Of a stretch of DNA of 64,000 nucleotides, positions 1,452-23,384 are shown piece by piece (position 1 is the first letter of the stretch; every line of letters starts with the position of its first letter). The DNA lies in contig NZ_CP004078.1 of NCBI RefSeq assembly GCF_000612505.1, positions 1,724,001-1,788,000 on the forward strand. The letters run 5' to 3'. The notes below the pieces were generated by a model. It was not told where the DNA came from and made no database searches. It was given only the letters and a program-made list of their open reading frames with translations. The DNA is from Paenibacillus sabinae T27. GTDB lineage: Bacteria; Bacillota; Bacilli; Paenibacillales; Paenibacillaceae. The translations under genes were made by a program, and so were the position numbers.

Positions 1452-1489
1452 TTGACAAGAAATCCCAGCGCAAGGTACATACATATGTA
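1452..1489 (+). promoter_or_regulatory. Possible promoter and 10-bp palindrome before the biosynthetic locus
   Basis: A perfect TTGACA -35 box at 1452-1457 is followed 18 bases later by only a poor -10 match (TACATA). The perfect palindrome TACATATGTA lies at 1480-1489, overlapping the expected -10/+1 region, where a repressor or activator could bind. The surrounding 1258-1526 gap is AT-rich and holds nothing else I can identify. The NRPS start follows an AAGGGGGAT ribosome binding site. The weak -10 suggests the promoter may need an activator; this is inference. Confidence 0.4.
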
Positions 1490-1526: not shown

Positions 1527-4500
1527 ATGAGCAAAATGTATGTTGATCCATCCAAAGAAAACGGTGCATCCAGGCAAAGGATTCTTAAGACGGTATCCAG
1601 TGTGACGGGTCACAGGATTGAAGACATTGAAGAGGAAATGTTTCTGGAAGAAGATCTGGGGCTGGACTCGATCAAGATGATTTCGCTGATGAATGAAATG
1701 ATGAAGCTGATCCCGGAGGAACAGCTGGATGATTTTCAAGACGCTCACCCGGTGGGATCATTGCTGGTTATATCCACTGTCCGTGAATTGCTGGGTATTT
1801 TTGAGACGTGGGAAGCCTCCCTTGGAAAAACTATGAATTCTCCTGAAATTGCGGCCACTGCCGATGGCGTCTCCATAACCGGTGAAATGCGCGAGCAGCT
1901 CAGGGTGGAGGTCTGCGAATTGATCTCCGAAATCACCGGCCATAACCTTGCCGATCTGCATGTGGATATGGATCTGGAAAGTGATCTGGGGCTGGATTCG
2001 ATCAAAATGATTTCGCTCATGAACGCTATGCTGAGACTCATTCCTGCAGACCAGGTGGATGACTTTACATGCAAATATTCCTTCGCTTCGCTGCTGACCC
2101 TGCAGACCGTCGGAGATATTGTAGAGTTGTTTGCCGATTGGCGGAAGAATGCCGGTATTGTCCCCCAGCCGGTTCTGAACGCCGACGCCCCTATTATGGC
2201 AGGAATTTCTGAAAATGATCCTGAGTTTCTTGAAATTTTACATACCCAATATTTATTTTTGGTCACGTATTTATCCGTAGCTAATCTCTCCATCAGCACG
2301 GGAGTGAAGGTCAGAGGCGAGCTGAATTTGGGAAGTCTGAGAGAGTCCTGGGGAGAGCTGATTTACCGCCATCCTGTTCTCCGGAGCGTGTTTACCCTTG
2401 ATCAAGGGACAAGCAGCCTGAAGGGCTACCGCCTGAAACTGCTCAAGGATGTTGCTCCGCCTGAGATTCCCGTGGAGGATATCCGGCATCTGGACCAGCA
2501 GGCACAGCAGCAAGTAATCTCCCGAAAATTTGAAGACGCGCTGAATCGTAAATTTGATATTACCCGGTGGCCGCTGCACACCTTCTCAGTGATGCGTACC
2601 GCCGATGATGAATTCGAACTCATTTTGGATATTAACCATCTCATCTCGGATGGTCTCGGCAACCAGCAGATCGTGAAGGAATTGCTGGAGATTTACGGCG
2701 CAAGATCGCACAAGAGAAACGCCCGGCTGGGACCTGCCCTTCGCGCCAAAGAGTATAACGATATCGTTATGAAGATTAATCAGTGGGAAGCGCCGGAGGA
2801 AGTTCAAGCCCTGGACGATTATGTACGGCAGCAGGGGAGGGGAACCTATTTTTTCAACCCCTATAAATCCTTAGGCGCACTCGCACCTGAGCGTACGAAA
2901 GAAGCTGTAATCCATACCCGGAAATATTGGATCGATGAGCAGACTACGTCTCTCCTGTTCAAGCGTACCAAAGCATGGCGCACCTCCTTGTTTGTTCTTC
3001 TGGTCAGCGCGTATTTAAAGACGATCAAACAGCAGGGGGAAGAACAAAGCCGAATTATTCTCAATCTGCCGACAAGCGGCAAGCTGTACCCCAATCAGGA
3101 TGCAACAGACGTGCTCGGCGCGTTTGCGCAGAATCTGGCCCTTACCTTTAATTGCGACGATGCCGGGGATGGCTGGGAATCGCTGATTGGCAGAACCAAA
3201 GAAGTCATCAACAGCAAGCTATCCTCAGGAATGGACCGGGCGCAGACCTCCAGAGCTGCACACTACTCCAAAGACTCGATCCGCCTGCACAATGGCAGCA
3301 TGCCAGAAGCGGCTGCTTCCATGATCCGCTCTACATTGAAATCAAACCTTTATCTCTCCTTCGTAGGAAACACATCCATTGACAAGAATTACGGACAGTA
3401 TGAAGTTCAAGATTATGAAGCTTATACGGGAACCAACCCCGGGACGATAGACAATCTGGTAGAAATTTTTCAAGGCAGACTGATGCTCACATCGAACTAT
3501 GACAGCACCTTTTTTGACGACGGCTACATCGACAAGCATATGAGCAGATTTATTGAAAATATTAACCGGCTCGCCGCATTTGAAGGGAAGACCGCCGAGT
3601 CTGTCTCTGTGGCGCCGGGACCGCAGGCGGATCGGAGGACCGGTGAGACGGAAGAGAAGCTGCGGGCCATCGCCCAAGAAATCAGCGCAAGGAAGCTTGG
3701 CGCCGAAGATCTGTCCCGTGATCTGGAAGCCGAGCTTGGTCTCGATTCCCTGCAGCGTATCCGGCTCATCACGAGGCTGGGCGGCGTATTCGGGAATATC
3801 GATAAGGGAGCTTTGTTCGAATGCCGGACGATGAATGAAATGATTTCCAAATTGGACGGCGGCAGCGCTGGTTCGTCAGAGGATAGCGAAACGGCGGCAG
3901 CGGAGATCCCTTATCTAAAAATCTCCGAGCAATCCAAGCTTACCCCGAACGCCGTCGCTGTTCTGGACGGAACTCGAAGCGTCACCTACCGCGAACTGGA
4001 TGAATTATCCAACCGCTTGGCTAACTATCTGCGCTCACAGGGAGTGAAATCGCAGACGCTGGTCGGAATTATGACGCTTCCCGGTCACCTGATGCTTGTC
4101 GGAATATTAGGAATTCTGAAGGCCGGGGCCGCTTATGTTCCTCTTGATCCGGTGTATCCGCCTGAACGGATCAAGTATATTACCCGGCATGCCCAGCTTC
4201 AGTTCCTGCTGACGGAACAGCTGCTGAATGAGCAGGCGAACCAAATCGTTCAGGAAAGCTCGTCTGTCCGGGCATTGATTTATCTGGATGAAGCTGTTGA
4301 CAAGCATGAACGGCAAGTCCAGCCTGCTTCGGCGCAGTGGAGGAACTATTCCGAGCGCGATCCTGAGGTCATAAGCTCGCCCCATGATGTCATGGTCGTT
4401 CTCTATACATCGGGATCAACCGGAAATCCGAAGGGCGTTGTGCTGAATCACCGCGGCTATATGAACCGGCTGGAATGGCATCAGGAGACGTTCCGGCTGC

Positions 4501-7500
4501 AGCCCGGCGAACGGGTGGCGCAAAAGACGTCCTGCTGCTTCGACATCTCGGTCTGGGAGCTGCTGTGGCCGCTGATGTATGGCGGAACTGTGTGCCCGGC
4601 CAAGCCGGAGGTCGTCAAGAATCCGTGGAGCCTGGCCCGGTGGATGATCGATACCCGCATCAATGTCATGCATTTTGTGCCCTCATTGTTCGGTGAATTT
4701 GTCAATTCGCTTGAGGACGAGGGATATGCGTTTCCCGGGCTGCGCTGGCTCATTTTCAGTGGAGAAGGTCTTCCTCTCTCTCCGGTTCAGAAATGGATGG
4801 ACCGGTACGGGAAGTCCACCGGACTCGCCAATCTCTATGGTCCCACCGAGGCTTCCATCGATGTCACTTATCATATCGTTTCCGAAAGACCGGGGTCGAA
4901 CGGCGAGTTCAGCATCCCTATTGGCAAGCCTATCAACAACGTGTTTATTAAAAATCTGGACGAGCGGATGCGTGAAGTTCCGGAGGGCGAAATGGGCGAG
5001 CTGTGGATCGGCGGCATTCAGCTGGCCAAAGGATATTTGCATGATCCGGAGAAGACCCGCGCCGCCTTCCACCCGAATCCGTTCCCGGAAACTCCCGGGG
5101 AATTCATTTACCGGACTGGGGATTTGACGGTGAAAAGGGCGGATGGCAGCTTCGAATACCATGGCCGCATCGATAATCAGGTGAAGCTGCGCGGCTTTCG
5201 GGTGGAATTGGGCGAGATTGAAGCCGTTCTGGACGCCCATGATCATATCGACGAGGCTGCTGTCATTGTAGTTGAGCTGGTTCCCGGACAGCAAATCCTG
5301 CTGGCCTGCCTGTCCGGCAAGACGACTGAGGAACAAGAAATCAAGGATTTTATCGGCCGGAAGCTCCCCTACTACATGATTCCGCATCGTTTGGAGTGGC
5401 TCCCACGGCTGCCGAAGAACCCGAACGGCAAGCTGGACCGCAAAGCGCTGCATGACTTGTTCGGTGGATTGGGCTATCCGGCGAAGCCTTTGGAGAGTCC
5501 TCATCTCCCTGAGATGAAAGCGGAGGACACCCTTCCGCTGGCGCCGGCCCAGAGCTGGCTGATGAATTATTTTGAATCCCCGTATTGCTGGGCGGGCTAT
5601 ACCCGATTTGTATACAACCGGCCGCTGGATTTGCTGCAGTTCAAAAAAGCCGTTGCTATATTGAACGGGCGGCATGATGTACTGAGAAGCGTCCTGGTGC
5701 AAAAGGATTTCGGATGGGAGCAGCGTTTCCTTTCGAAGGAAGTGGACAGCAATGTGGATTTCTACGACGGCACCCATATGGAGGAAGCCGAAAGAAATGA
5801 AGCGATTCAAGCAGCCCTGACCGAAGCGATTAAGGGATTGCAGGTTGACCGGTGGCCTTTATGGCGAATTGTCGTCGTTCAGATTTCGGAGTCGTCGTAC
5901 GATATTGCGGCGGTTGGCCATCATCTGATTTCGGATATTATTACCAACCAGCTGTTGGTTCGGGAAATTTGGCAGATTTATGCCGGTCTCGGGCCGGAAG
6001 AGCAGCAAGTGCAGCTCCCGAAGCCTCATTCATATGCCGATTTCATTAAGGCCGTACAGGAACACAAACAAATTCACGGCAAAAACTATGCGGATTACTG
6101 GTCATCCCAATTTCCGCCGGAGTCCGTGTTCAAGCTCCCTGCCGATTATATCAAGGGGCCAAACGATGAGCAGTCCGCAAGGCTTATCCGCTTCGAATTT
6201 AACAAAGAGCAGACTTCGAAGGTACTGGGCCGGGCCAAAAAGCACTTTGGCAGCAATGTATATCCGATTCTGCTGGCTCCGCTTTACCGGCTGCTGGGCA
6301 GTCTCTATCAGCGCCAGAAGGTCATTGTCAGCCACCGGGTGCATGGGCGAGAGCTGGGGAGCGAGCAGAGCTTTATGCAGACGCCCGGCAATTTTGCCGT
6401 CAATTTTCCGATGGGCGTTCATGTGGAGGAGAATAGCAGTTGGCAGGAACTTGTCCGCGCCATTCGCCAGAGTTTGGAGGAGGTTCCGCTTGGCGGGGTG
6501 AGCTATGATCTTATCTCCGAGAATTTGCCGATCTACATGTACCCGGACGTCAAATTAACGCCGATCAGGGCCAATTATCTCGGAAACCGGGATATGCCGA
6601 AGCTGCCCGGCTTTGAATTCTCGAAGGAAGGGCTGGACCGCCGGTTCGCACTGCCGGAGCAAAAAAGAATATCCGTCATTGAATTTTTCTTCTCCATCGA
6701 GGAGGGCAAACTGGCCCTTGAGATTGAATATTCGTCCAATCTTCATGCGGCGTCAACGATCAATCGCCTGGCGGAGCACTACACCGAAAATATGCTGAAC
6801 CTGCTTTCGTCGATCGAATCGCCGGCACCGCAGCTTAGATCAAGAGAAGGACTGCTGTCCAATAAAGTGGCCATTGTGACGGGCGGCAGCAAAGGCATCG
6901 GACGGAGCATCGCGGAATCCTTGGCCCGGGAGGGAGCCGATATTGTTCTCGTATCCAGATCGGCTCTTCAGCTCCAAGAAACAGCCGAAGAGATCCGCAA
7001 GTTAGGTGCGGAGGTTCTGGCGATATCGGCTGATGTCAGCGATATTTCGAGTGTATATAAGGCCGTAGATCAGGCCATGGAACGCTTCGGCCATATTGAT
7101 ATTCTGGTCAACAGCGCCGGAATCACCGGAATGGCTGCAGCGGCCGATATGAGCCCCGAGGCGTGGAGCGAGATTATTCAGGTGAATCTGCTGGGAACGT
7201 ATCACTTTTGCTATGCGGTTATCCCGCATCTGCTGAAACAGAAGCAGGGCAAGATCATCAATATCGGCTCCGACTCCTCGTTTATCGGTTATCCGATGAT
7301 GAGCGCCTATGCAGCCTCCAAACATGGTGTCCTTGGTTTGACCCGGTCTTTGTCGGAAGAGCTAAAGAACAGCAATATTCAGGTGAACGCGCTGTGCCCG
7401 GCGCTTGTGGATACCGATATGGCCCCCGCTGCGTTCAGAGGAAGGGCCATCCCTCCATCAGGCGTTGCCGATGCGGCGGTATTCCTGGCTTCGTCCGCTT

Positions 7501-7616
7501 CAGATTATATTACCGGCGAAGCTCTGCAAATCTATGGCAAGCAGGATATGAACTGGTTTGGAGCACAGCAGATGCAAATGCTGCAGGCGGTCATGCGCAA
7601 GCAACCATCATTGTAA
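1527..7616 (+). CDS. Hybrid NRPS: carrier-carrier-C-carrier-A(Ser)-E/C-like-SDR
   Basis: A 2029-aa multidomain megasynthase. Domains in order: carrier 1 (Ser48 in GLDSIKM), carrier 2 (Ser158, same motif), condensation domain (about 230-680; NHLISDG with His371 and Asp375), carrier 3 (Ser741 in GLDSLQR), adenylation domain (about 785-1290; YTSGSTGNPKG at 960-970), a second condensation-superfamily domain (about 1320-1765; HHLISD at 1465-1470), and a C-terminal short-chain dehydrogenase (about 1778-2010; TGGSKGIG at 1785-1792, YAASK at 1928-1932). The adenylation pocket residues read D-I-W-H-I-S-L-I-D-K by motif alignment, close to the known serine code. No carrier follows the A domain and there is no thioesterase. 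The second C-type domain has E-domain-like features (HGRE, a VNFPMG stretch, NYLG) but Arg1604 where epimerases have the catalytic Glu. It starts the locus and is followed 11 bases later by the exporter. It probably builds a serine-containing, lipid-linked product together with the PKS. Confidence 0.93.
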   Translation: MSKMYVDPSKENGASRQRILKTVSSVTGHRIEDIEEEMFLEEDLGLDSIKMISLMNEMMKLIPEEQLDDFQDAHPVGSLLVISTVRELLGIFETWEASLGKTMNSPEIAATADGVSITGEMREQLRVEVCELISEITGHNLADLHVDMDLESDLGLDSIKMISLMNAMLRLIPADQVDDFTCKYSFASLLTLQTVGDIVELFADWRKNAGIVPQPVLNADAPIMAGISENDPEFLEILHTQYLFLVTYLSVANLSISTGVKVRGELNLGSLRESWGELIYRHPVLRSVFTLDQGTSSLKGYRLKLLKDVAPPEIPVEDIRHLDQQAQQQVISRKFEDALNRKFDITRWPLHTFSVMRTADDEFELILDINHLISDGLGNQQIVKELLEIYGARSHKRNARLGPALRAKEYNDIVMKINQWEAPEEVQALDDYVRQQGRGTYFFNPYKSLGALAPERTKEAVIHTRKYWIDEQTTSLLFKRTKAWRTSLFVLLVSAYLKTIKQQGEEQSRIILNLPTSGKLYPNQDATDVLGAFAQNLALTFNCDDAGDGWESLIGRTKEVINSKLSSGMDRAQTSRAAHYSKDSIRLHNGSMPEAAASMIRSTLKSNLYLSFVGNTSIDKNYGQYEVQDYEAYTGTNPGTIDNLVEIFQGRLMLTSNYDSTFFDDGYIDKHMSRFIENINRLAAFEGKTAESVSVAPGPQADRRTGETEEKLRAIAQEISARKLGAEDLSRDLEAELGLDSLQRIRLITRLGGVFGNIDKGALFECRTMNEMISKLDGGSAGSSEDSETAAAEIPYLKISEQSKLTPNAVAVLDGTRSVTYRELDELSNRLANYLRSQGVKSQTLVGIMTLPGHLMLVGILGILKAGAAYVPLDPVYPPERIKYITRHAQLQFLLTEQLLNEQANQIVQESSSVRALIYLDEAVDKHERQVQPASAQWRNYSERDPEVISSPHDVMVVLYTSGSTGNPKGVVLNHRGYMNRLEWHQETFRLQPGERVAQKTSCCFDISVWELLWPLMYGGTVCPAKPEVVKNPWSLARWMIDTRINVMHFVPSLFGEFVNSLEDEGYAFPGLRWLIFSGEGLPLSPVQKWMDRYGKSTGLANLYGPTEASIDVTYHIVSERPGSNGEFSIPIGKPINNVFIKNLDERMREVPEGEMGELWIGGIQLAKGYLHDPEKTRAAFHPNPFPETPGEFIYRTGDLTVKRADGSFEYHGRIDNQVKLRGFRVELGEIEAVLDAHDHIDEAAVIVVELVPGQQILLACLSGKTTEEQEIKDFIGRKLPYYMIPHRLEWLPRLPKNPNGKLDRKALHDLFGGLGYPAKPLESPHLPEMKAEDTLPLAPAQSWLMNYFESPYCWAGYTRFVYNRPLDLLQFKKAVAILNGRHDVLRSVLVQKDFGWEQRFLSKEVDSNVDFYDGTHMEEAERNEAIQAALTEAIKGLQVDRWPLWRIVVVQISESSYDIAAVGHHLISDIITNQLLVREIWQIYAGLGPEEQQVQLPKPHSYADFIKAVQEHKQIHGKNYADYWSSQFPPESVFKLPADYIKGPNDEQSARLIRFEFNKEQTSKVLGRAKKHFGSNVYPILLAPLYRLLGSLYQRQKVIVSHRVHGRELGSEQSFMQTPGNFAVNFPMGVHVEENSSWQELVRAIRQSLEEVPLGGVSYDLISENLPIYMYPDVKLTPIRANYLGNRDMPKLPGFEFSKEGLDRRFALPEQKRISVIEFFFSIEEGKLALEIEYSSNLHAASTINRLAEHYTENMLNLLSSIESPAPQLRSREGLLSNKVAIVTGGSKGIGRSIAESLAREGADIVLVSRSALQLQETAEEIRKLGAEVLAISADVSDISSVYKAVDQAMERFGHIDILVNSAGITGMAAAADMSPEAWSEIIQVNLLGTYHFCYAVIPHLLKQKQGKIINIGSDSSFIGYPMMSAYAASKHGVLGLTRSLSEELKNSNIQVNALCPALVDTDMAPAAFRGRAIPPSGVADAAVFLASSASDYITGEALQIYGKQDMNWFGAQQMQMLQAVMRKQPSL

Positions 7617-7627
7617 AAGGGGCCTAA

Positions 7628-8812
7628 GTGAAAATGGAGCAGCAATCGGGCAACTTTCATGAGCTCTTTGGCGGAAGCAAAGGGATCATTTACAGCATTG
7701 CCCTTCTGGTGGGAACCTCCATGGGCGTCATCAACCCGCTTTCTACGACCCACATGACCACCAACCATGGAGATGAAATCTGGATTGGCATCATTTCTTC
7801 CTCTTATTTTTTCTTTATGGCACTGGGTTCCGTATTTGTGGACCGCACGATGAGAGGAAGCAATGTGAAAAGGGTCATTACGACAGGGCTGCTGCTAACC
7901 TCAGTTTGCGCATCGATTTTCCCGTTTTTTACCGTCAATAGTATCTGGCTGGGCCTCATGTCCGTGATGGGTATTGGCATCAGCTGCAATATGGTGGGGA
8001 TGCAGACAGCGCTGCATAATCTTTCGAGTGCAAAAAGTCTCGGGATGATCAACGGAATTTACAGCTTATGCTATGCCTTGGGGCTGATAGTCAGCGCGGC
8101 GCTGTCGCCGCAGGTGTACGGTTATGCGGCATGGCTGCCCTTTGCTTTCAGCGGTCTGTGCCTGGTGCTCGCCGCGGGAATTATTCATTTTAAGCTGACC
8201 GATGTATTGATCATTCCCGGGCGTGCAAGGGACAAGGTCATATCCAAAATTACGCTGGCACTCTTCGGGGCCTTTGTGTACGGGTTCAGCGAAACGATTG
8301 TCGTTTCGTTGTATCCCCTCTACTTAATAAGGGAGCATGTCGAGGTTTCCCAGACAGGGTATGCTTTAAGTATTTTTGTAATCGGCAGCATTATCGGTCT
8401 TCTTCCATTAACCTATCTGGCCGACCGGATCGGACGGAGGAAGTGCCTGGCTATATGTGTGCTTCTCTCGATTGTGGCCGTGACCGGCATCGTGTACGTA
8501 TCGGATATGTCTCTTAAAATGCTTTTTTCCTTCGCCGCCGGGTTTATGATCGGGCCGCTGTATCCTCTCTCAATGGCTCTTGCGGTTCAGGATTTGCCTC
8601 AAAGCGAGAGGTCATCGGGAAATGCATGGTTCACCACCTTTTACGGCTTTGGTTCGGCGGCCGGGCCGTTTTTCTCCTCAGTCGTGATGGACGTTTGGGG
8701 GCACCGGCATATTTTTACGGCCAGTCTGCTGCTGTTTGGCTTGTTTCTGACCCACATGTTTGTGACTAGAAAAGGTTCAAAAGTACGATTAGCCAAGGAG
8801 GAAATGTTGTGA
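7628..8812 (+). CDS. MFS transporter, probable exporter of the cluster product
   Basis: A 394-aa integral membrane protein with about 12 hydrophobic segments. The MFS signature LADRIGRRK lies in the C-terminal half; the N-terminal copy (VFVDRTMRG) is degenerate. GTG at 7628 is used, with AAAAGGGG just upstream; ATG at 7634 is an alternative. The gene sits between the NRPS and PKS genes and its stop overlaps the PKS start (GTGA), so the three are translationally coupled. Family and position suggest product efflux and self-protection; the substrate is inferred. It could also take up a precursor. Confidence 0.88.
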   Translation: MKMEQQSGNFHELFGGSKGIIYSIALLVGTSMGVINPLSTTHMTTNHGDEIWIGIISSSYFFFMALGSVFVDRTMRGSNVKRVITTGLLLTSVCASIFPFFTVNSIWLGLMSVMGIGISCNMVGMQTALHNLSSAKSLGMINGIYSLCYALGLIVSAALSPQVYGYAAWLPFAFSGLCLVLAAGIIHFKLTDVLIIPGRARDKVISKITLALFGAFVYGFSETIVVSLYPLYLIREHVEVSQTGYALSIFVIGSIIGLLPLTYLADRIGRRKCLAICVLLSIVAVTGIVYVSDMSLKMLFSFAAGFMIGPLYPLSMALAVQDLPQSERSSGNAWFTTFYGFGSAAGPFFSSVVMDVWGHRHIFTASLLLFGLFLTHMFVTRKGSKVRLAKEEML

Positions 8813-11800: not shown

Positions 11801-14800
11801 GTGAAATCAACAACGACGGCCACTCCATCGGTGTTATGGCCCCTAACCCTGACGGGCAGAGAGAGCTGATCGAGTCCCTCTATGTGCGCAGCGGGCTGAA
11901 TCCGGCGGACATTCAGTATGTGGAAGCCCATGGAACGGGCACGAAAATCGGGGATCCGAGCGAAGTCAGAGCGCTTGATAAAGCCTTCAAAAGCTGGGGG
12001 CTTGCCGCGCAATCGATAGCCATTGGTTCGGTAAAATCCAATATCGGGCATCTGTTGGGCGCGGCGGGAATCGCCAGCTTTATCAAGATCGTCATGGCCC
12101 TGCGGAACAAAACGATGCCGCCGCAGGTGAATGTTGTTCAGCCGAATCCGATGCTGAAATTTGAGCAGACTCCTTTCTATCTGCTCCCTGAAGCCAGCGA
12201 ATGGAAAGTGGCGGAGGGAGCGGCCAGACGAGCGGCCATTAACTCCTTCGGTTTTGGCGGGACCAACAGCCATATGGTCGTTGAAGAGGCGCTGCAGGGA
12301 CATACGATAAGCAGGGAAGGGTATCCTGAGCGGCCGAAGCACGTCATCGGGCTGTCGGCTCACACTCCTTCCGCGCTGGAGCAAAAAAAGGCGGAGCTGG
12401 CGGCCTTTCTCGAACAATCCGGGGAGTATTCGCTCGGGGATGTGTGCTACACGGAAAATGTGACGCGTACTGCGCTGCCGCACCGTTTCCATGCGGTAGC
12501 GGATTCGGCTCAGGACCTGATCGACAAATTAAAGCTCCCTTCGCCTGAGCCGGTATCGGCCCTGATTTCGCCGAAGATTGCGTTGATGTTTACCGGACAA
12601 GGCTCGCAATATGCGGGGATGGGCAGAGCTTTATACGATCAGCTTCCCGTTTTTCGTCAAATTGTGGACGAGTGCTCCGAGGCCTTTTATCCCTATTTGC
12701 AATTGAAGCTGACCGACTTGCTCTACGGCGCGGCGGCCGACAATCAAGTTCTTGCGCAGACGAACATCACTCAACCGGCCGTCTTTACGATGGACTATAC
12801 CTTTGGCAGACTGCTGCTCGATTTGGGCATCCGGCCCGCTTACCTGCTCGGCCACAGCATCGGGGAATGGGTTGCTGCTTGTCTCGCGGGCGTCGTGAGC
12901 CTTGAGGATGCGGCAAGATTGGTAGCCGCAAGAGGCAAGTTAATGAGTGAGCTGCCGGCGGCGGGCGCCATGGCGGCGGTATTTACTTCAGCCAGCAAAC
13001 TTAATGCTTTGCTGAAGTCCTTTGAAGGTTCCTTGTGGGTCGCTGGGTACAACGTCACGCATCAGGTTGTGTCCGGAACGGCGGAAGCGGTGGAAGCATT
13101 TGTGTCCGCGCTGCAGACGCAGGGAATTGGAGCCAAGAAACTGAATGTGTCCCAAGCCTTTCACACGCCGCTGATGGAACCGATGCTGGAAGCGTTCAAG
13201 AAGGAACTGGAAGCCACTGTGTTCCATGCTCCGCAAATTCCGGTCATTTCCAATGTGACCGCTGAAGTCATTCAGGAATCACCCACGGCGCAGTATTGGA
13301 TGCAGCATATTCTGGATGCCGTTAAGTTTGAGCAAAGCCTGACTTACGCGATAGACCAGGAGGTCTCGGTTCTGGTCGAATGCGGACCGGACGCTATCCT
13401 TGCCGGGATGGCGGGAGGCTTGCAGCATCCAGGCAAACCGCAGGTGCTCCATTCTCTTAGCCGCAAAAAAGAGAACTGGGAGACCTGGCTCGGTATGCTT
13501 GGGCAGTTATTTTCGCTGGGAGCGGGCATCAATTGGACAGCGATAGAGCCCGAGCATGTCTACCGGAAAGTGGCGCTCCCGGCGTATCCTTTCGAGCATA
13601 AGACGTTCAAGCCGGACTTTGGAGCAGACTCGGAAGCTGGGGCAAATGGCAGCGGCTTGTTCCACGAATGGCAGTGGAAACCTGCGGACCTTACCGGCGG
13701 TACCCTGTTTAATGAAGGAGCCCTGATCGTATGGAATGGCAACCTGGAGATCGGCGGGGAGCTGGAACGCCTGACGGACACTGAACGGAACCCGGTCTAC
13801 TACGCTGCCTCCGGCGATAAGTTCCATTTCGACGGCAAGCGCAGCTTTACCATACGGCCCGACCATGCGGAGGATTATGCGGATTTGCTGGAGCAGGTGC
13901 CAGGCAGGCTGTCGGCAGTTATTCATTTATCCCATTATCTGCAGGAAGAGCTTCATGCCGAGAATCTGCTGAAGGATGGCGGCGTGAATGAACATTTTTA
14001 CAGTCTTCTGTATTTGGGGCAAGGTTTGGTCCGCCACGGGCTGAGCGATGTCCAGCTGGTCATAGTTACGGATAAAGCTTATGCACTGCCTGACGATGCA
14101 GGCGGGGGCAATCCGAATCAGGCGGCTGCGGCCACACTGGGCCAGGTCATCGGTACCGAGAATGACGGAATCCGGGTATCGATAGTTGATATGAACAAGC
14201 AGGAATACCCGTCAGGCCGGGAGCTGGCCAAAGCATTGACTTTAGCCATACAGCAGCAGGCCGATGAGGAGTCGATCTCGGCCATACGCGGCGGTGTCCG
14301 TTATGAGCGCACCTTGGAGAAAATGCCCGCGCCGGCCGTAGGACAGGCTATTAACCTTAACGATGGGGAAACGTACCTGATCACTGGAGGCACTGGGCTC
14401 GTGGGAGGCCAAATTGCTCTGGCGCTTGCGCGGCAAGCACGGATCAATGTCGTTCTTACTGGCCGAAAACAGCTTCCGCCAGATCATCCCCTCCTGCCAA
14501 AGCTGGAAGAGCTGGGCGCTCAGGTGATGTACGCGGCCGTAGATGTTACGGATCAGGCTCAAATGGAGGAACTGCTGCGCAGCATTCACGCCGCCTATGG
14601 CCCATTGCACGGAGTCGTTCATGCCGCGGGACAGCTGGAATACACGCCGCATAAGATTTTAAGCCGAAGTGTAAACGATATGGACAGCATTCTGGCTCCC
14701 AAATGGAAGGGGACCATTATTACGGACCTCGTAACCCGTCAAGAGCCGCTGCGATTCTTCGCGGCCCTGTCTTCGGTTTCGGCCACCCGCAAAGCATGGG

Positions 14801-17800
14801 CCTCGGGTCTTGGCGATTATGCCGCGGCCAACGCTTTCTTGAATAGCTACAGCTCCTATCGAACGAAGGTGCAGGCTCCGGGGCGTTCCTTGTCGGTCAA
14901 CTTCTCGCTTTGGTCGGACACGGGGGCGGGAACGGAGTTTGGGAATCTTCTTGAGCTGACGCTTAGATCACAAGGGCTGAAGCCGCTTGCTCACTCGAGA
15001 GCCGCCGATGCTTTCCTGAGAGCCTTGGGAACCGCCCGGCCGGATGTCATTCATATCCTGGACCTGGTAAAAACCGATGAGAAGAAGGAACGCCCGGCCG
15101 CTCTTAAAGCAGAACGTCATCCCGCAGCCGCCGCCGATACCGGCGCTCGGACGCAGGTTTACCACACGGCAAAAGAAATCCGGGAAACGGTATACCGGAC
15201 AATAGCCGGGCAGCTGCAAATTCCTGTCAGCCACCTGGAGGCGGGCAAGAATTTCATGGAGCTTGGCCTGGATTCGCTCGGGGCGGTTCAGGTGGTGTCC
15301 AAGCTTGGCGGCATCTTTAATACCGAGCTGTACCCGACGCTCATTTTTGAATACCAGACGCCCGAAGAATTATCCGCGCACATTGTGGAGCTGCTCACGG
15401 CTGAACCCGTAAAGGCAGCGGCTCACGGGGAGAACAAGAAACCCGAGGACAACGGGAAGAATGAAAAACTTGGAGATATCGCCATTATCGGGATCGGTCT
15501 GCGCATACCCGGAGCGGGCAATCCGGAGGAATATTGGGAGCTGCTGCATAACGGCCGAAGCGCCATTCGCCCTGTCGATCCCGGAAGATGGTCTAATGAT
15601 GAGCATGTGAACACCGATGCCACGGCGCTTCATACGACTTACATCAGCCGTGGGGGCTTTATCGACGCTCCGTACGACTTTGATCCGTTGTTCTTTGGAA
15701 TGTCGCCGAAAGAAGCGGAGGCCACCGATCCCCAGCAGAGGATCTTTCTGCAGATCGCCTGGGAGGCCTTGCAGCAAGCGGGGTATGGAGGGAAATACCG
15801 CACCCGCAAAATCGGCGTGTTCGCAGGCTGCGAGCAGAACACCTATATGGAGCACTTCGCCAATTACCGTTCCTATAAGCTGATCAAGAACCGTTTGGCG
15901 GACAGCCCCGCCTTCAAACGGATGAACCCTGAAGAACGGCAGGAAATTCTCGCCGGCATTTCCGGCGTTCTTGAGCCGGCCCGCCTCGTTCCCGATACGG
16001 TCGCCGGCAACGGCTTGAATGAGGTAGCGGCGCGGGTAAGCCATTGCTTGAATTTGACCGGACCCAGTCTGATCGTAAATTCCGCCTGCTCCTCTTCCCT
16101 GGTAGCCATTCACATGGCCTGTGAAAGTCTTCGCACCGGAGAGTCTGAAATGGCCATTGCGGGCGGCGTGAACCTGAACCTTAGCCCGACGCCGTTCGTC
16201 TCCCTCAGCCGGGTGACCGCGCTGTCGCCGACCGGAGTCTGCTACCCGTTTGACCAAAGAGCGAACGGAATGGTGCTGGGTGAAGGAGCCGGAGCTGTAC
16301 TGCTGAAGCCGCTTGAAGCCGCGCAGAGAGACGGCGATTACATCTATGCGGTCATCAAAGGCTCGGCCATTAACAATGACGGCCGCTCCCAGGGAATTAC
16401 TGCGCCAAGACCGCAGGGGCAGGCCGAGGTAATCAGGGCAGCGTTCCTGCGGACGGGAATACATCCCGAAACGGTTTCTTATGTCGAAACGCACGGTACC
16501 GCCACGCCGCTTGGCGACCCCATTGAAATTGAGGGGATGACCCAGGCGTTCAGCACCTTTACGGACAAGAAGCAATTTTGCGGAATCGGTTCAGTCAAAT
16601 CCTCCGTTGGCCATATGCTGTCCGCCGCCGGGGTGACCAGTCTGATCAAGGTGGCTCTTGCCTTGAAGCATCAAACGCTGCCGCATACGCTGAATTATGA
16701 CCGGCCGAATCCGAATATCGATTTTGAGCAATCCCCGTTCTATGTGGTCGATAAATATCCAAGACCATGGAAGGCGGAAGGAGACACGCCGCTCAGAGCA
16801 AGTGTCAATGCCTTCGGATTCGGAGGTACCAACGCCCATGTTATTTTGGAACAGGCCCCGCAGACTGCGGATGTTCTTTCTCCGGCGGATAACGAACCGC
16901 ATCTTCTGATGCTTACCGGCAGAAATGAACAAAGCATAAGGGCCGTTGCCGGACAGCTCAGAGCGTATCTTGAAAAGCATGAGGAGGCTAGCGCAGCTTC
17001 CGTATGCTGCACAATGAATCTTTCACAGAAAGAAATGTCCGCCAAAGCGGCTGCCGTCATCAGGTCCCGTGAGCATTTGACGAGTGTTCTTTCCGCGGTT
17101 GAAAATGGCGAGTCTTTTGCTGAAATTACCAAAGGACGCTCCAATCCAAGCCGAACGACAGCGGTACATCTTATGCTGGACGGCAATCTAAAGGTAAGCT
17201 GCAGTGAAGTGGATGCGCTCTGCTCCCGGTTCCCAGGCTTTGACTCGGCCTACCAGAAAGCGAAGCAGGAAATTAAGAGTGGCGGAGAGCAGCTTAAGTC
17301 TTTTGCCCTTCAATACGCATCTGCAAAGCTGCTGCTCGAATTAGGGATTCGTCCTGCCGGAATCTTTGCGGAGGGAACAGGCATACTCGCCGCGCTCGTT
17401 CTCACAGGCCAGATTTCACTGCGGCAAGCCGTATTATTTATGCAGGAGGGAATCGAGCAGCCTGGCGAGACGACAATTGATGATCACGAATTTTTGAAAT
17501 GTCCGGTGGTAACTCCTCTAGGCGTAATCTATCGCGGCCATAACAGAGACATCTGGTCTTTCGTTAAGAACGCTGCCGGGAATAAACTGGAGGAACAGGA
17601 TTTTACGGATGCCATGGGCGCGGGCGAAGCGCTGATTTATTTCGGAAGCGATCTTCGCTCGGTTAACCTGCCGGCCGGTCAGCGCGATACAATCCAGACC
17701 CTAAGCATCTCGCTGGAATCGGACGCTGTAGAGAATCTTTTGCAGGGCATGGGCAAGCTGTATGTTCTTGGCGTTCCTTTCGACCCGTCCGGACTTGGTA

Positions 17801-17922
17801 GTCCCGATCAGAAAAAGGTGCTCTTGCCGACCTATCCGTTCGCTAATGAGTTCTATAAGGTTTCTTATGAACAAGAGGAAGTGCCGGTCATAAAGGCAGG
17901 ACTCCGAAAAATCGAGGTATAA
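8809..17922 (+). CDS. Polyketide synthase: FAAL-ACP-KS-AT-KR-ACP-KS-inactive AT
   Basis: A 3037-aa modular PKS. Domains: fatty-acyl-AMP ligase (about 30-600; SSGSTNIPKG at 192-201, YHHDMGLIG, YGMAEA), carrier (Ser641 in GGTSL), KS1 (about 705-1140; Cys906, His1041, His1081), AT1 (about 1250-1560; GHSIG with Ser1350; QAFH, resembling the malonyl-type HAFH), KR (structural half plus Rossmann half about 1640-2060; GGTGLVG, Tyr2004 in YAAAN), carrier (Ser2156 in GLDSL), KS2 (about 2222-2650; Cys2427, His2562, His2602), and a C-terminal AT remnant in which the GHSxG His and Ser are Glu2855 and Gly2856. There is no carrier after KS2 and no thioesterase. The FAAL should adenylate a fatty acid and load it on the first carrier; module 1 adds malonate and reduces it to a beta-hydroxy acid. 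The start is GTG behind AAGGAGGAA. KS2 presumably passes its chain to the tandem carriers of the NRPS. Confidence 0.95.
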   Translation: MSRFKRKSKENLSILKGKSITGKYAELGNLANALVQVTGNPERGITFIQNDNSEFFLSYQALLDGATRRLGGLQELGFKPGEYALILLEDSKDFILTFWACILGGVIPVPASYPASSKVINTSLSKLQAIWEVIERPRILSDRSLLESREEMETTLGISGLQILEASSLDEAQQDGTLMLADAHSPALIQFSSGSTNIPKGTILTHDNLLTNIEAIISSCRMSDKDRSLGWMPYHHDMGLIGFHLSTLVCGIHQFNMTPMKFVKRPTLWLDIIDKHRITFSGCPNFGLRLVHSRVKEEQLSSWDLSSLRLLFNGAEPVSVKTMRKFMDKFAKSGFNKNAMFPVYGMAEACLAVSFPALGEEPLVHSLNRELLAGESRAEAIDEDDKRATLMADEGYPVHGMEIRIVEEESGEVVPEGTVGEIQIRGRNVTSGYINNPEVTAKSFQDGWLKTGDTGFILNGRLSVSGRIKDIVFVNGQNFFAHDIEAVIEELDEVEPGKMAVCGWHDEAEGKEKVGLFSTQRLQEKDVKPVYSRILRHINETMGIPVDYVSFIRSIPKTTSGKVQRFNLVESFKKGEFQDKTYPGSYFTAEANPMEPEKKSGGEAASGAFIETIRKIWASVLHKPVETIPYDEPFLSLGGTSLKAMQVLGALEDELHIELTHDLLIKCRTVREMDEYLAVWINSKGSPSEERKEPSASSGVKSGGGDIAVIAMACRFPGASSPEEFWNNLMQGVTSIGEVPVSHWNIDDYYSPSPEFGKTYCRTGGFLDNPYGFDAGLFGISDEEAAVMDPQQRMVLELTYELIERAGYSRQQMSGKKVGLFVGAGGNSYFEYHLNTLNRMKLQSFDSFAVLSREQQEQIMEEWRRKLGITGDHSNLLVDNIVNMIPARTSQEFNFKGPSMAVDTACSSSLVTLHLAADSIRRGECESAIAGGISLLLTPTSYQYFSNAGALSASGRSSVFDAGADGFVPGEGGGLVMLKPLEQAQRDGDSVLAVLRASEINNDGHSIGVMAPNPDGQRELIESLYVRSGLNPADIQYVEAHGTGTKIGDPSEVRALDKAFKSWGLAAQSIAIGSVKSNIGHLLGAAGIASFIKIVMALRNKTMPPQVNVVQPNPMLKFEQTPFYLLPEASEWKVAEGAARRAAINSFGFGGTNSHMVVEEALQGHTISREGYPERPKHVIGLSAHTPSALEQKKAELAAFLEQSGEYSLGDVCYTENVTRTALPHRFHAVADSAQDLIDKLKLPSPEPVSALISPKIALMFTGQGSQYAGMGRALYDQLPVFRQIVDECSEAFYPYLQLKLTDLLYGAAADNQVLAQTNITQPAVFTMDYTFGRLLLDLGIRPAYLLGHSIGEWVAACLAGVVSLEDAARLVAARGKLMSELPAAGAMAAVFTSASKLNALLKSFEGSLWVAGYNVTHQVVSGTAEAVEAFVSALQTQGIGAKKLNVSQAFHTPLMEPMLEAFKKELEATVFHAPQIPVISNVTAEVIQESPTAQYWMQHILDAVKFEQSLTYAIDQEVSVLVECGPDAILAGMAGGLQHPGKPQVLHSLSRKKENWETWLGMLGQLFSLGAGINWTAIEPEHVYRKVALPAYPFEHKTFKPDFGADSEAGANGSGLFHEWQWKPADLTGGTLFNEGALIVWNGNLEIGGELERLTDTERNPVYYAASGDKFHFDGKRSFTIRPDHAEDYADLLEQVPGRLSAVIHLSHYLQEELHAENLLKDGGVNEHFYSLLYLGQGLVRHGLSDVQLVIVTDKAYALPDDAGGGNPNQAAAATLGQVIGTENDGIRVSIVDMNKQEYPSGRELAKALTLAIQQQADEESISAIRGGVRYERTLEKMPAPAVGQAINLNDGETYLITGGTGLVGGQIALALARQARINVVLTGRKQLPPDHPLLPKLEELGAQVMYAAVDVTDQAQMEELLRSIHAAYGPLHGVVHAAGQLEYTPHKILSRSVNDMDSILAPKWKGTIITDLVTRQEPLRFFAALSSVSATRKAWASGLGDYAAANAFLNSYSSYRTKVQAPGRSLSVNFSLWSDTGAGTEFGNLLELTLRSQGLKPLAHSRAADAFLRALGTARPDVIHILDLVKTDEKKERPAALKAERHPAAAADTGARTQVYHTAKEIRETVYRTIAGQLQIPVSHLEAGKNFMELGLDSLGAVQVVSKLGGIFNTELYPTLIFEYQTPEELSAHIVELLTAEPVKAAAHGENKKPEDNGKNEKLGDIAIIGIGLRIPGAGNPEEYWELLHNGRSAIRPVDPGRWSNDEHVNTDATALHTTYISRGGFIDAPYDFDPLFFGMSPKEAEATDPQQRIFLQIAWEALQQAGYGGKYRTRKIGVFAGCEQNTYMEHFANYRSYKLIKNRLADSPAFKRMNPEERQEILAGISGVLEPARLVPDTVAGNGLNEVAARVSHCLNLTGPSLIVNSACSSSLVAIHMACESLRTGESEMAIAGGVNLNLSPTPFVSLSRVTALSPTGVCYPFDQRANGMVLGEGAGAVLLKPLEAAQRDGDYIYAVIKGSAINNDGRSQGITAPRPQGQAEVIRAAFLRTGIHPETVSYVETHGTATPLGDPIEIEGMTQAFSTFTDKKQFCGIGSVKSSVGHMLSAAGVTSLIKVALALKHQTLPHTLNYDRPNPNIDFEQSPFYVVDKYPRPWKAEGDTPLRASVNAFGFGGTNAHVILEQAPQTADVLSPADNEPHLLMLTGRNEQSIRAVAGQLRAYLEKHEEASAASVCCTMNLSQKEMSAKAAAVIRSREHLTSVLSAVENGESFAEITKGRSNPSRTTAVHLMLDGNLKVSCSEVDALCSRFPGFDSAYQKAKQEIKSGGEQLKSFALQYASAKLLLELGIRPAGIFAEGTGILAALVLTGQISLRQAVLFMQEGIEQPGETTIDDHEFLKCPVVTPLGVIYRGHNRDIWSFVKNAAGNKLEEQDFTDAMGAGEALIYFGSDLRSVNLPAGQRDTIQTLSISLESDAVENLLQGMGKLYVLGVPFDPSGLGSPDQKKVLLPTYPFANEFYKVSYEQEEVPVIKAGLRKIEV

Positions 17923-17934
17923 AGGGAGAAGGGC

Positions 17935-19125
17935 ATGAGCAAGGGCTACAAAATAACAAGAACTATAATCCTGTCTGTCATTGTTCTGCTCGCCCTGCTG
18001 GCCTTCACCTTGTTCACTGCCAGCGGTGCGTTGAAGAAGGCCGAATATCTTGATCCCTGGAAACGGGATTATGCCAAACAGTTCGAGGACCCGCGACTGC
18101 AGCTCGTGGCTCATGGATTATTGGCCGCGAACAGCCATAATCTGCAGCCATGGAAAATTCGCTTGGACCAGCAGAACCCGCTGCTGTTCTATCTTTACAC
18201 CGACAGCGAACGGCTTGCGCCGGAATCGGACCCCTTGGCCCGGCAAACGCTGGTTTCACAAGGCACCTTTTTGGAGTATATGCGGATAGCCGGCGAGCAG
18301 CTGGGATACCCCGCAGAGATCACGCTGTTTCCGGATGGGGAGTACGATGAACAACATTTAAGTGAGAGCATGGAACGGAAGCCGGTGGCGAAGATTACGT
18401 TGTCCAAGGCGAACCCCCGGCGAGATCCGCTTTATGAATTTATGTTCTTGCCGGATACGAACAGAATGGCCTATCGGGCGGATGAAGTGACGCCGGCTCA
18501 AATCCGGAAGCTGAGCGCAACCGACACGGAGCAGGACCTGATCTTATCCTTTTTAAACGGAAACGAGGATATCAAGAAGTTTGGCGTCTACGGTGTGGAG
18601 GGCACGGAAATCGAAACCGGTCTGCAGCGGATGAACGACGAGTCGGCCCGGATTTTTCGTTCCAATGAGTATCAGAAGAATAAATACCGTTTTGGATTTT
18701 CATTTGAAGGGCAAGGAACGACGGGCTGGAAAAAGCATCTGCTGCAAGGATTAATCACGCTCATTCCCTCCCTCAACAATGAAGAAGCCGCGGCCAAGCT
18801 CGCCGTCCAGACGGCCCGAACCGCAGCGAGCCATACTCCGGCGTATGCTTTGGTCCTCAGCAAGGATAACAGCCGGACCAGCCAGGTTAAAGCGGGAATG
18901 CTGTACAGCAGGCTTATCCTTGCCGCGCATGAGGAAGGACTCGTGATGCAGCCGCTCAGCCAGGTCTTGGAGGAATATCCGGAAATGCGAGAGGCTTACG
19001 GCAGAATCCACAGAGAGTATGCGTCGCCGGGCGAAACGATCCAGTTCCTGATCCGCTTGGGAAGACCGACCCGAGAGACACCGCTTAGCATGAGACGGGA
19101 GGCTGTGGATTTGATTCGGGAATAG
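17935..19125 (+). CDS. Acg-family FMN-binding nitroreductase-like protein, membrane-anchored
   Basis: A 396-aa protein with one N-terminal membrane segment (about residues 9-30), then a nitroreductase-fold region. The motif LLAANSHNLQPWKI (about 62-75) matches the ANSHNxQPW signature of Acg-type proteins, which bind FMN but often lack full nitroreductase activity. Late motifs such as AAHEEGLVMQPLSQ fit the second half of the fold. It lies 12 bases after the PKS stop with an AAGGGAGAAGGG ribosome binding site, so it belongs to the same operon. It might oxidise or reduce the product or an intermediate at the membrane, or sequester flavin; the role in the cluster is inferred only from position. 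Confidence 0.82.
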   Translation: MSKGYKITRTIILSVIVLLALLAFTLFTASGALKKAEYLDPWKRDYAKQFEDPRLQLVAHGLLAANSHNLQPWKIRLDQQNPLLFYLYTDSERLAPESDPLARQTLVSQGTFLEYMRIAGEQLGYPAEITLFPDGEYDEQHLSESMERKPVAKITLSKANPRRDPLYEFMFLPDTNRMAYRADEVTPAQIRKLSATDTEQDLILSFLNGNEDIKKFGVYGVEGTEIETGLQRMNDESARIFRSNEYQKNKYRFGFSFEGQGTTGWKKHLLQGLITLIPSLNNEEAAAKLAVQTARTAASHTPAYALVLSKDNSRTSQVKAGMLYSRLILAAHEEGLVMQPLSQVLEEYPEMREAYGRIHREYASPGETIQFLIRLGRPTRETPLSMRREAVDLIRE

Positions 19126-19159
19126 GAATGGCTTGCAGGTTAAAAGTACAGATAAACTC

Positions 19160-19204
19160 GGGCAGTGAGCAGGGGTGACACTCCTCTGTTCACTGTCTAT
19201 TTTT
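19160..19204 (+). terminator. Imperfect terminator hairpin between the Acg-like gene and PPTase
   Basis: An imperfect long stem (CAGTGAGCAGGGGTG against CACTCCTCTGTTCACTG, with one bulged region) is followed by TCTATTTTT. It sits just before the PPTase ribosome binding site, so it could reduce rather than abolish readthrough into the PPTase gene. Confidence 0.55.
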
Positions 19205-19223
19205 AAGGAGTGGAAGGACATCA

Positions 19224-19943
19224 ATGGTTGAGGTCTATGCGCTGCCGGTGCCGTATGAAGAGGGTTTTCCGCAAAATATGGAATTGTGCGATTATGTGTC
19301 GCCAGAGAAAAGCATACGCATCAAGCGCATGGCAAGCCCAAAAGACGCGCAGCGTCTTCTTTGGGCCGAATTGCTCGTTCGCGTTCTGATTATGGACAAA
19401 TACAAGCTGAAAAACAAAGAGATTACGTTTGTTACCAATCCACATGGCAAGCCTGTTTTTGAGAGAGATCCAAGCTTTGCGTTCAATATCTCCCACTCGG
19501 GAAATTGGATCGTTGCGGCCGTTGCCGAACATGGACAATGGATAGGAGTTGATATTGAAGAAATCCGGCCGATTGAGCTTGATATTGCCGAACGATTTTT
19601 CGCCCCGATGGAGTACCGTCGTTTGATTAGGGAAAGCAAGTCCCGTCAATTGGAGTATTTCTATGATTTATGGACGCTAAAGGAAAGCTATCTTAAAGCT
19701 ACCGGCGCAGGATTGACGCTTCCTCTTGATTCATTTGAGATCCATAAGGACAGGGAAGCAGGCGCCATTTCCGTTGCCCAGACCCATTACGCGCATTCGT
19801 TCTTTTTTCGGCAATATGATGTTGATCCTTCCTATAAACTGTCCGTTTGTTCCACGGAGGAAAGCTTTGCCGACGCTGTTAAAAGGGTTGAGTGTTCCGA
19901 GGTTTATGAGCGGGTGGCTGGAGTGCCGATGCAAAAGCTTTAA
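19224..19943 (+). CDS. Sfp-type 4'-phosphopantetheinyl transferase
   Basis: A 239-aa Sfp-type phosphopantetheinyl transferase. It moves the phosphopantetheine arm from CoA to the conserved Ser of carrier domains. All three family motifs are visible: FNISHSGNWIVAAV (about 90-103), IGVDIEEI with the Mg-binding Asp/Glu (about 110-117), and WTLKESYLKATG (about 152-163). Length matches Sfp (about 224-240 aa). It is the last gene of the biosynthetic locus and should activate the five carriers on the NRPS and PKS proteins (Ser48, Ser158, Ser741; Ser641, Ser2156). A partial terminator precedes it, so its level may differ from the megasynthases. Confidence 0.93.
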   Translation: MVEVYALPVPYEEGFPQNMELCDYVSPEKSIRIKRMASPKDAQRLLWAELLVRVLIMDKYKLKNKEITFVTNPHGKPVFERDPSFAFNISHSGNWIVAAVAEHGQWIGVDIEEIRPIELDIAERFFAPMEYRRLIRESKSRQLEYFYDLWTLKESYLKATGAGLTLPLDSFEIHKDREAGAISVAQTHYAHSFFFRQYDVDPSYKLSVCSTEESFADAVKRVECSEVYERVAGVPMQKL

Positions 19944-20139: not shown

Positions 20140-20171
20140 ATTGAGGAAGGAAATCCGGGGAGGGAATGTCA

Positions 20172-21251
20172 ATGTCGGCCATACGTGTACAGGGCTTAAG
20201 CAAGGTGTTCAATGTCAAGGAAAAGCGGCAGGGGCTTCGCGGCAGTATGCAGTCTTTGTTCCGGCCGGTATACAGGGAGAAGATAGCGGTGAGGCCGATT
20301 GATTTTTCGGTGGAGGAGGGAGAAATCCTGGCCTTTATGGGACCTAACGGTGCGGGAAAATCAACCACGATCAAAATGCTGACCGGTATTCTCCATCCGA
20401 CATCAGGCCATGCAGAGGTTCTGGGTCTGTGCCCCTGGAAGGAACGCGGCAGGCTGGGCTTCGTGGTCGGGTCCGTCTTCGGACAGAAATCGCAGCTCTG
20501 GTATCATCTTCCGCCTGTGGACTCCTTCGAGCTGCTCGGGGCCGTCTACGAACTCCCGAAAACGGATTTCCTGCGCCGCAGAGACGATCTGGCCGAACGC
20601 TTTGAGATTGGCCCTTATATGAACACTCCCGTGCGCAGGCTGTCTCTTGGCGAAAGAATGCGCTGTGAGATTGTGGCGGCGCTGCTCCACAGCCCAAGAG
20701 TGGTATTCCTCGACGAGCCCACCATCGGACTGGATATTGTCGTCAAGCAGAAGATTCGCGACCTGATCGTGGAGATGAACAGAGAGGAAGGGACCACGCT
20801 GTTCCTGACCTCTCATGACGCCGGTGATATCGAGCAGTTGTGCAAAAGAGCTATCGTCATCAACCATGGAGATATCATTCTCGATCAGGAGGTATCCCGG
20901 ATGAAGCGGGATTACCTCACCTACAAGACCATCAACCTGCGGTTGAAGGAGAAACCCGCCTCTATGGAGCTCCCCGGCGTACAGATCCTGAAGCAGCAAG
21001 GGAATGGGCTGAAGCTTAACATTGACACCGCCGTGATTAACATCGAAGAGGTTCTAGGGTACATTGTCGCTCACTGCCAGGTGGAGGATGTAACCATTGA
21101 AGATCCTCCTATGGAAGAGATTATCGCCAAAATATACGAGCGCACCGGCGGCACTCGCAGCTCCTTGGCCGGGTATCCCGCAGGAGCGGAGAAGGAAGCT
21201 GCGCACGTAGCCGCCTTGCACCGCGGCAAGGCTTCAGGAGGTTCCCTATGA
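20172..21251 (+). CDS. ABC transporter ATP-binding protein (ABC-2 type)
   Basis: A 359-aa ABC ATPase. Walker A is GPNGAGKST, the signature is LSLGERMRCE and Walker B is VVFLDEPTIGLD, all in order, with a TSHD switch His after them. A C-terminal extension of about 100 residues follows the ATPase core, as in drug/polysaccharide ABC-2 exporters. The start at 20172 is preferred because GGGGAGGGA is only 2 bases from the ATG at 20166 but 8 from this one. Its stop overlaps the first permease start (ATGA). It powers the two following permeases; the substrate is unknown. Its location next to the biosynthetic locus raises the possibility of product export, but it appears to be a separate operon. Confidence 0.92.
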   Translation: MSAIRVQGLSKVFNVKEKRQGLRGSMQSLFRPVYREKIAVRPIDFSVEEGEILAFMGPNGAGKSTTIKMLTGILHPTSGHAEVLGLCPWKERGRLGFVVGSVFGQKSQLWYHLPPVDSFELLGAVYELPKTDFLRRRDDLAERFEIGPYMNTPVRRLSLGERMRCEIVAALLHSPRVVFLDEPTIGLDIVVKQKIRDLIVEMNREEGTTLFLTSHDAGDIEQLCKRAIVINHGDIILDQEVSRMKRDYLTYKTINLRLKEKPASMELPGVQILKQQGNGLKLNIDTAVINIEEVLGYIVAHCQVEDVTIEDPPMEEIIAKIYERTGGTRSSLAGYPAGAEKEAAHVAALHRGKASGGSL

Positions 21252-23352: not shown

Positions 23353-23384
23353 ATAATAAAAACCCCTTGGATACCAAGGGGTTT
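23353..23384 (-). terminator. Terminator of the tRNA-Pro gene
   Basis: On the minus strand AACCCCTTGG pairs perfectly with CCAAGGGGTT around TATC, followed by TTTATTATTT. It lies 15 bases past the tRNA 3' end. Confidence 0.85.

Follow-up and report, generated by a model that had tools for sequence, protein, structure and literature searches.

A candidate acyl-serine lipid operon in Paenibacillus sabinae T27 and its relatives in several phyla

Assembly lines of the iturin/mycosubtilin and puwainaphycin types begin with a fatty acyl-AMP ligase (FAAL) and continue with polyketide synthase (PKS) extension and nonribosomal peptide synthetase (NRPS) steps, and the columbamide and serinolamide lipids carry a serine-derived head group. 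PKS/NRPS clusters of Clostridium kluyveri and Clostridium beijerinckii are described as cryptic by Behnken and Hertweck (2012; PMC3250452). Here we describe a FAAL-PKS-NRPS operon in a 64,000-nucleotide stretch of P. sabinae T27 (NZ_CP004078.1, positions 1,724,001 to 1,788,000), hereafter the window; the host genome is a single contig of 5.27 Mb. We give even chances to the proposition that the operon's product is an exported N-acyl-serine lipid. Its surprising features are a module with swapped carrier and adenylation domains followed by an altered epimerisation-like domain, and its distribution.

The first-pass annotation had drawn a five-gene locus at 1527-19943 of the window, and our results bear this out: all five genes run in the same direction (plus strand), each reading frame is open, and the gene products are confirmed by Pfam and NCBIfam. 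The NRPS gene comes first (1527-7616; 2029 aa), followed after 11 bases by the gene of a putative exporter of the major facilitator superfamily (MFS; 7628-8812; 394 aa, PF07690), which overlaps the FAAL-PKS gene (8809-17922; 3037 aa). Next, 12 bases on, lies the gene of a predicted Acg-family FMN-binding oxidoreductase (17935-19125; 396 aa, NF047509; PDB match 2ymv) and, after a further 98 bases, that of a 4'-phosphopantetheinyl transferase (PPTase; 19224-19943; 239 aa, PF01648), an optional part of the locus.

Domain order of the megasynthases and a proposed product

By Pfam and motif reading, the FAAL-PKS protein is ordered FAAL-ACP-KS-AT-KR-ACP-KS-pseudoAT (ACP, acyl carrier protein; KS, ketosynthase; AT, acyltransferase; KR, ketoreductase). 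Its first module joins a KS with an intact Cys-His-His triad (KS1, 10915-12291), an AT plus linker with GHSIG and QAFH (12337-13479), a KR together with the stretch before it (13666-15048; PF08659, PF21394 and motif), which is probably the structural half of the KR, and an ACP with a GLDSL site (15169-15396; the second PF00550 stretch of the protein, positioned from the sequence). GHSxG is kept in this AT and in all 45 aligned AT copies, and we take QAFH to be malonyl-like. The module would add one malonyl unit and reduce it to a 3-hydroxyacyl chain, in agreement with the single reduced malonate extension predicted at the first pass. In the second module the KS triad is again intact (KS2, 15466-16857) and the AT serine is missing. 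This second AT (16900-17892), a domain absent from the earlier account, lacks Ser at the nucleophile column in 19/19 aligned copies including the window's, the column having been matched to GHSxG by eye. Its predicted model, built on an 18-row alignment, has a mean pLDDT of 82.8 and is unreliable over the last 28 residues; it shows an AT fold, matching PKS AT domains in Foldseek with an E of 1.6e-12, a TM by query of 0.72 and an rmsd of 8.4 over 435 columns. On this alignment and model the remnant is a pseudo-AT, predicted to be dead, so that the extender for KS2 would have to be loaded elsewhere. The second ketosynthase step foreseen by the first-pass annotation thus keeps its ketosynthase and loses its own AT; KS2 would add the second unit on tandem ACPs at the N terminus of the NRPS, with malonyl coming from the first AT or from cellular FabD.

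The acyl starter would be placed by a FAAL/CAL-type acyl-AMP ligase (8869-10530; PF00501) on its own ACP (10630-10848; PF00550, residues 611-676). By sequence the ligase belongs to the FAAL/CAL group, with the fatty acyl-AMP ligase PRK09192 as its best NCBIfam match (363.4 bits, below the cut-off of 600). Its closest solved chain is McyG (1.7e-99), ahead of the best FAAL-named chain (1.5e-70), and because of this order we hold a fatty starter to be likely rather than proved; of the fatty acyl starter claimed earlier, the acyl ligase stands and the fatty nature is a probability. An aryl or other non-fatty starter, as with McyG, would make the product no lipid at all. That alternative, which can call on the McyG match and on a DAHP synthase family (F24) in 3 cyanobacterial loci, strikes us as rather improbable in view of the PRK09192 match and of the lack of aromatic-acid genes in the scanned part of the window.

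The NRPS protein has the order ACP-ACP-C-T-A-E*-SDR, where C is a condensation, T a carrier and A an adenylation domain, E* an epimerisation (E)-like domain and SDR a short-chain dehydrogenase/reductase. The following counts refer to a 20-row alignment of the window's protein with 19 homologues picked for diversity from 120 listed. The tandem ACPs (1575-2141), each read from the sequence by a DLGLDSI site, are both present in 14/20 rows and reduced to one in 6/20; Pfam gives two PF00550 stretches for the three carrier domains of the whole protein, so not each of them passes alone. They are followed by C1 (2211-3581; one of two PF00668 stretches of the protein), whose NHLISDG motif keeps the second His, the Asp and the Gly, by T (3657-3860; PF00550, residues 711-773) and by A (3906-5459; PF00501, TIGR01733). 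A carrier ahead of its adenylation domain reverses the usual C-A-T order, and this non-canonical module is found in 20/20 rows. Several cyanobacterial relatives have the NRPS gene split at the T/A point; in one of them (L038), a first protein has KS-AT, a carrier and C, with two PF00550 stretches and with T ahead of the break by tblastn, and the following one has A-E*. The code of the A domain, DIWHISLIDK, presumably an EntF-like serine code, is nearly constant as D[IV]WHxSLIDK in all 20 rows, from Paenibacillus to Methylocaldum and Pendulispora, and upholds the serine incorporation of the first-pass annotation.

At the end of the NRPS lies a FabG-like SDR domain with Ser-Tyr-Lys (6858-7547; PF00106), residues that are present in 19/20 rows. 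The fused reductase of the earlier account is confirmed as a fused SDR, and its reading as a thioester reductase was rejected: the family is wrong, as the domain is PF00106/PF13561, NAD_binding_4 is absent among the nine families listed, and the solved chains nearest to it are MFE-2 and FabG (hydroxyacyl-CoA and 3-oxoacyl-ACP reductases). Being a classical FabG-like SDR, it is more likely a ketoreductase acting in trans than a releasing enzyme. Apart from the KR of the first module, no other domain of the two megasynthases is ketoreductase-like, and the SDR would reduce the unit added by KS2, giving a 3,5-dihydroxyacyl chain that C1 would link to serine loaded by A onto the preceding T.

Between A and the SDR lies a domain that the earlier account did not contain (5520-6812). 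Its match to Condensation (PF00668), the terminal one of the protein, was reassigned: in place of a C domain we read an E-like one whose active site is altered. In predicted fold and in sequence E* resembles E domains more closely than C domains; TIGR01720, which we take as a marker of E domains, scores 41.6 bits against it, under the cut-off of 74.2, and does not match C1 at E≤0.01. The E domains of TycA, TycB3, GrsA, PvdL and BacC have their fold and the HHxxxD, GR and NYLG motifs in common with E*; unlike them, E* has lost the Gly of HHxxxDG and carries Arg for the Glu of EGHGRE, and here A stands between T and the domain. The Arg occurs in 20/20 rows and in 29/29 copies, in the column where BacC and PvdL have their Glu. 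This Glu is catalytic in GrsA and TycA, a point on which the papers listed in a literature search held nothing. E* would act on the acyl-seryl-T intermediate, and epimerisation may be lost along with the canonical Glu. Should it epimerise all the same, with a separate thioesterase freeing an acyl-D-serine, the E-type fold and motifs would be explained, and a family near the cluster in 4/45 loci scanned (F13) does have a member that Pfam names Thioesterase. We consider this unlikely, however, with the Glu replaced in every copy and with no thioesterase in the scan of window genes, which reached 27660.

No TE, R or CT release domain was found in the megasynthases, so that the acyl-serine would leave by no assigned domain. 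This would suit a tetramate route, as would a second module without KR and the invariant Arg of E*: KS2 would give a beta-ketoacyl chain, C1 a beta-ketoacyl-serine on T, and a Dieckmann closure, perhaps by E*, would release a serine-derived tetramic acid, the SDR reducing the ring or being a vestige. On the other hand, the SDR with its Ser-Tyr-Lys is fused in 19/20 rows, which fits reduction before amide formation, and no known Dieckmann domain was found; the route seems improbable to us. Whatever its reaction, E* lends itself well to a search for new release or tailoring chemistry, even if the link to nitrogenase discussed below fails.

The product is best read as a (di)hydroxyacyl-serine lipid that would be exported by the MFS protein and might then receive its final form at the cell surface, through membrane redox chemistry of the Acg-type flavoprotein. 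The exporter and the flavoprotein had both been named at the first pass, and PF07690 and an NF047509 score of 207.5 bits over a cut-off of 199 support these assignments. The MFS gene has a tblastn match in 28/42 family loci, a count that takes in L001, the locus of the window. An N-terminal hydrophobic stretch read in the Acg protein raises the possibility of an outward-facing flavin domain. The Acg family extends far beyond the cluster, with 799 of 7997 scored candidates passing E 0.001; in Anaeromyxobacter, a second member stands on the opposite strand, ~5 kb past the cluster's MFS gene.

Several observations weigh against an exported acyl-serine lipid made in this way. Besides the missing release domain and the McyG match of the ligase, the SDR is without a match in 2/3 cyanobacterial NRPS proteins scanned (L038, L025) and has altered motifs in the cyanobacterial copies L020 and L028, which means that its reaction is not universal. 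Moreover, the E domain of GrsA ranked under several C domains in the structure match of E*, and no Acg match was found beside six clostridial-type clusters, where a few kb past the PKS were covered. Two copies also look damaged: an NRPS copy at G033:C1:4089901-4096036 (L105) is broken over three frames, with its KS1 match in two pieces, which may reflect decay or a sequencing error, and the listed PKS frame of L099 (G034) stops after 2278 residues while tblastn matches go on, so this gene is perhaps broken.

A further family, F9 (26919-27356 in L029), occurs near the cluster in 5 clostridial-type loci, and its scanned member has an FMN_bind domain; F9 perhaps fills the place of the Acg gene there.

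Conservation of the operon and its relatives

In a search with the NRPS, 7995 candidates were scored, 2179 had E≤0.001 and the best 120 were listed. PF00668, PF00550, PF00501 and an SDR family are combined in 108 of these 120, which come from organisms including Paenibacillus, Clostridium, Bacillus cytotoxicus, Halalkalibacter, Nostoc, Coleofasciculus, Methylocaldum and Pendulispora; the closest among the matches listed are those of Paenibacillus apii (96%) and P. durus (89%). The groups with full-length relatives are Paenibacillus, Clostridium, Bacillaceae, cyanobacteria, Gammaproteobacteria and Myxococcota. A scan of genome contigs returned at least 79 loci, 32 of which (L016-L047) look like family members; of these, L042 and L046 are partial and L043 is divergent. 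The order NRPS-MFS-FAAL/PKS recurs in five clostridial contigs (L022, L029, L031, L033, L034) and in Halalkalibacter (L030), and in Ruminiclostridium (L019) the ligase stands apart, ahead of the NRPS. Luteimonas (L021) and Anaeromyxobacter (L023) have PKS-NRPS-MFS, an order that supports a flow from PKS to NRPS. In the 20-row NRPS tree (midpoint-rooted drawing), the 13 Bacillota rows are separated from those of cyanobacteria, Methylocaldum, Anaeromyxobacter and Pendulispora, a pattern that favours an old split by phyla over recent transfer between them. Since the gene set is kept in other genera, the locus is not a chance assembly; judged by sequence, it is one member of a multi-phylum family and no isolated oddity. 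This small orphan operon thereby defines a biosynthetic family across Bacillota, Cyanobacteria, Gammaproteobacteria and Myxococcota.

MFS, PKS and Acg genes lie downstream of the NRPS gene in 7/7 Paenibacillus genomes having enough sequence (G013, G015, G027, G028, G031, G033 and G034; an eighth, G024, stops inside the ligase gene), and the core operon is these four genes. The PPTase counted in the locus by the first-pass annotation is present and lies outside this core, as it adjoins the cluster in 1/7 of the Paenibacillus relatives; a terminator-like hairpin stands between the Acg and PPTase genes (19160-19198, plus strand), in a consensus scan that gave 13 such sites in the stretch against 6.2 expected. 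Upstream of the operon, the promoter region holds a conserved block of 24 bases, TTGACANNAAATCCCANNNNAAGG (1452-1475, plus strand), with one match of 0 mismatches per genome in 8/8 Paenibacillus carriers searched; the pattern was derived from 7 of these, G090 being new.

Downstream, an ABC transporter with two ABC2_membrane_6 permeases (20166-22832) was rejected as a cluster member: the genes as a set occur in 0/7 Paenibacillus relatives, whose downstream stretches gave a sole weak ABC1 match (23% identity). Further on are a tRNA gene (23402-23475, minus strand) and a hairpin with an 11-bp stem, terminator-like on the minus strand (23360-23384). A plasmid search with 10000-17900 gave partial matches only, covering at most 6% of the query in the ten matches listed.

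Elsewhere in the family, L029 (~3756-9790) and L031 (~2225-9815) have in common a run of seven gene families (F49-F55) upstream of the NRPS, with gene lengths that resemble a fab/acc fatty-acid cluster. The cyanobacterial loci L035, L038, L045, L025 and L026 have P450, SRPBCC, amine-oxidase, DAHP synthase and DUF4386 genes near the cluster, and also a family of 317-341 aa whose scanned member has no Pfam match.

Co-occurrence with nitrogenase

The distribution of the cluster points to nitrogenase bacteria for its biological role. The window's genome (G000) has five nifH-family matches at E≤1e-100, four of them over the curated cut-off. Among 100 Paenibacillus genomes, 54 are nifH-positive and 16 have the C-terminal part of the NRPS, and all 16 carriers are nifH-positive (Fisher 1.6e-5); among 206 Clostridiaceae genomes the figures are 66 nifH-positive (those over the cut-off, with 7 weaker ones left out), 13 NRPS carriers and 13/13 (Fisher 1.6e-7). 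These p-values, like the next, assume independent genomes, an assumption that does not hold. As a control, condensation domains (E≤1e-30) were found in 74/206 Clostridiaceae. Of these, 61 are without the cluster and only 16 of the 61 have nifH, against 13/13 carriers (p 6.5e-7); in Clostridiaceae without condensation domains the count is 37/132. All 29 carriers of the two samples are therefore nifH-positive, in Clostridiaceae well beyond what NRPS content gives. As for nifD, 25 of the 29 are over the cut-off and 3 just under it (636-647 vs 653.55 bits).

Other data argue against the link. The remaining carrier, G283, has a distant nifD match only (368.8 bits). In a set of named carriers that overlaps both samples (from 29 of L016-L047, with L042, L043 and L046 left out; 28 counted), nifH was found in 23/28 and is missing from a Crocosphaera metagenome-assembled genome (MAG), Luteimonas, Halalkalibacter, Microcystis and Vasconcelosia. 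The Crocosphaera MAG has one weak nifD match; the other four, for which completeness is unstated, gave no nifH at 1e-90 and no nifD at 1e-60.

The association may thus be a by-product of common ancestry and large genomes and not of function, an explanation on which we place about half of our belief. It accommodates the four carriers just named, an NRPS tree that follows phyla and gives no hint of recent transfer between diazotrophs, and the genus of G138, where 12/12 genomes of at least 5.4 Mb are nifH-positive, three of them carriers. The regulatory sequences agree with it as well, as no site of GlnR type, by the known GlnR consensus, was found in the window, and the promoter block is operon-specific. 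The idea that this block marks a common regulon with nif was rejected: the site of the operon is the single exact one in each of 8 genomes, other matches have 2-3 mismatches, and a reversed-pattern control gave similar numbers of weaker matches in some genomes. Against mere ancestry and size stand the low share of nifH among NRPS-bearing Clostridiaceae that lack the cluster (16/61), the large NRPS-bearing Clostridiaceae without nifH (G338 with 5.8 Mb, G232 and G253 with 5.4 Mb) and the recurrence of the nifH pattern in two families. We regard the link between cluster and nitrogenase as a lead; if it survives a tree-aware test, it would offer an uncommon route to a small molecule conserved in diazotrophs.

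A bolder proposal combines both lines: the Arg-bearing, E-derived domain would represent a catalytic class new to the condensation superfamily, releasing or cyclising the acyl-serine in the swapped T-A module, and the serine lipid would serve nitrogen fixation in unrelated diazotrophs, for example by nitrogenase protection, signalling or metal supply. That both parts are true together we think decidedly unlikely.

Comparison with known systems

A literature search with subscription papers and MIBiG outside its scope returned no characterised product for the cluster family, in keeping with the first-pass annotation, which recognised none. Compared with the iturin, mycosubtilin and puwainaphycin lines, the present one has a single serine module with swapped T and A, an E-like domain and an SDR, and no aminotransferase or TE was found in it. 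The halogenase and methyltransferase domains of columbamide biosynthesis were not found in the present cluster either. The C domain of the columbamide protein ColG couples a reduced polyketide to an amino acid, as proposed here for C1, a likeness of function (PMC12184294). The loading ligase of McyG is the closest solved relative of the ligase, in a different context.

C. kluyveri and C. beijerinckii both carry full-length relatives of the NRPS. The clostridial clusters of PMC3250452, which may belong to the present family, are labelled trans-AT in that paper; unlike the window, the clostridial loci examined here show no Acg gene. Taken together, the operon works like a FAAL-started PKS-NRPS line and matches no characterised cluster found in the literature searched.

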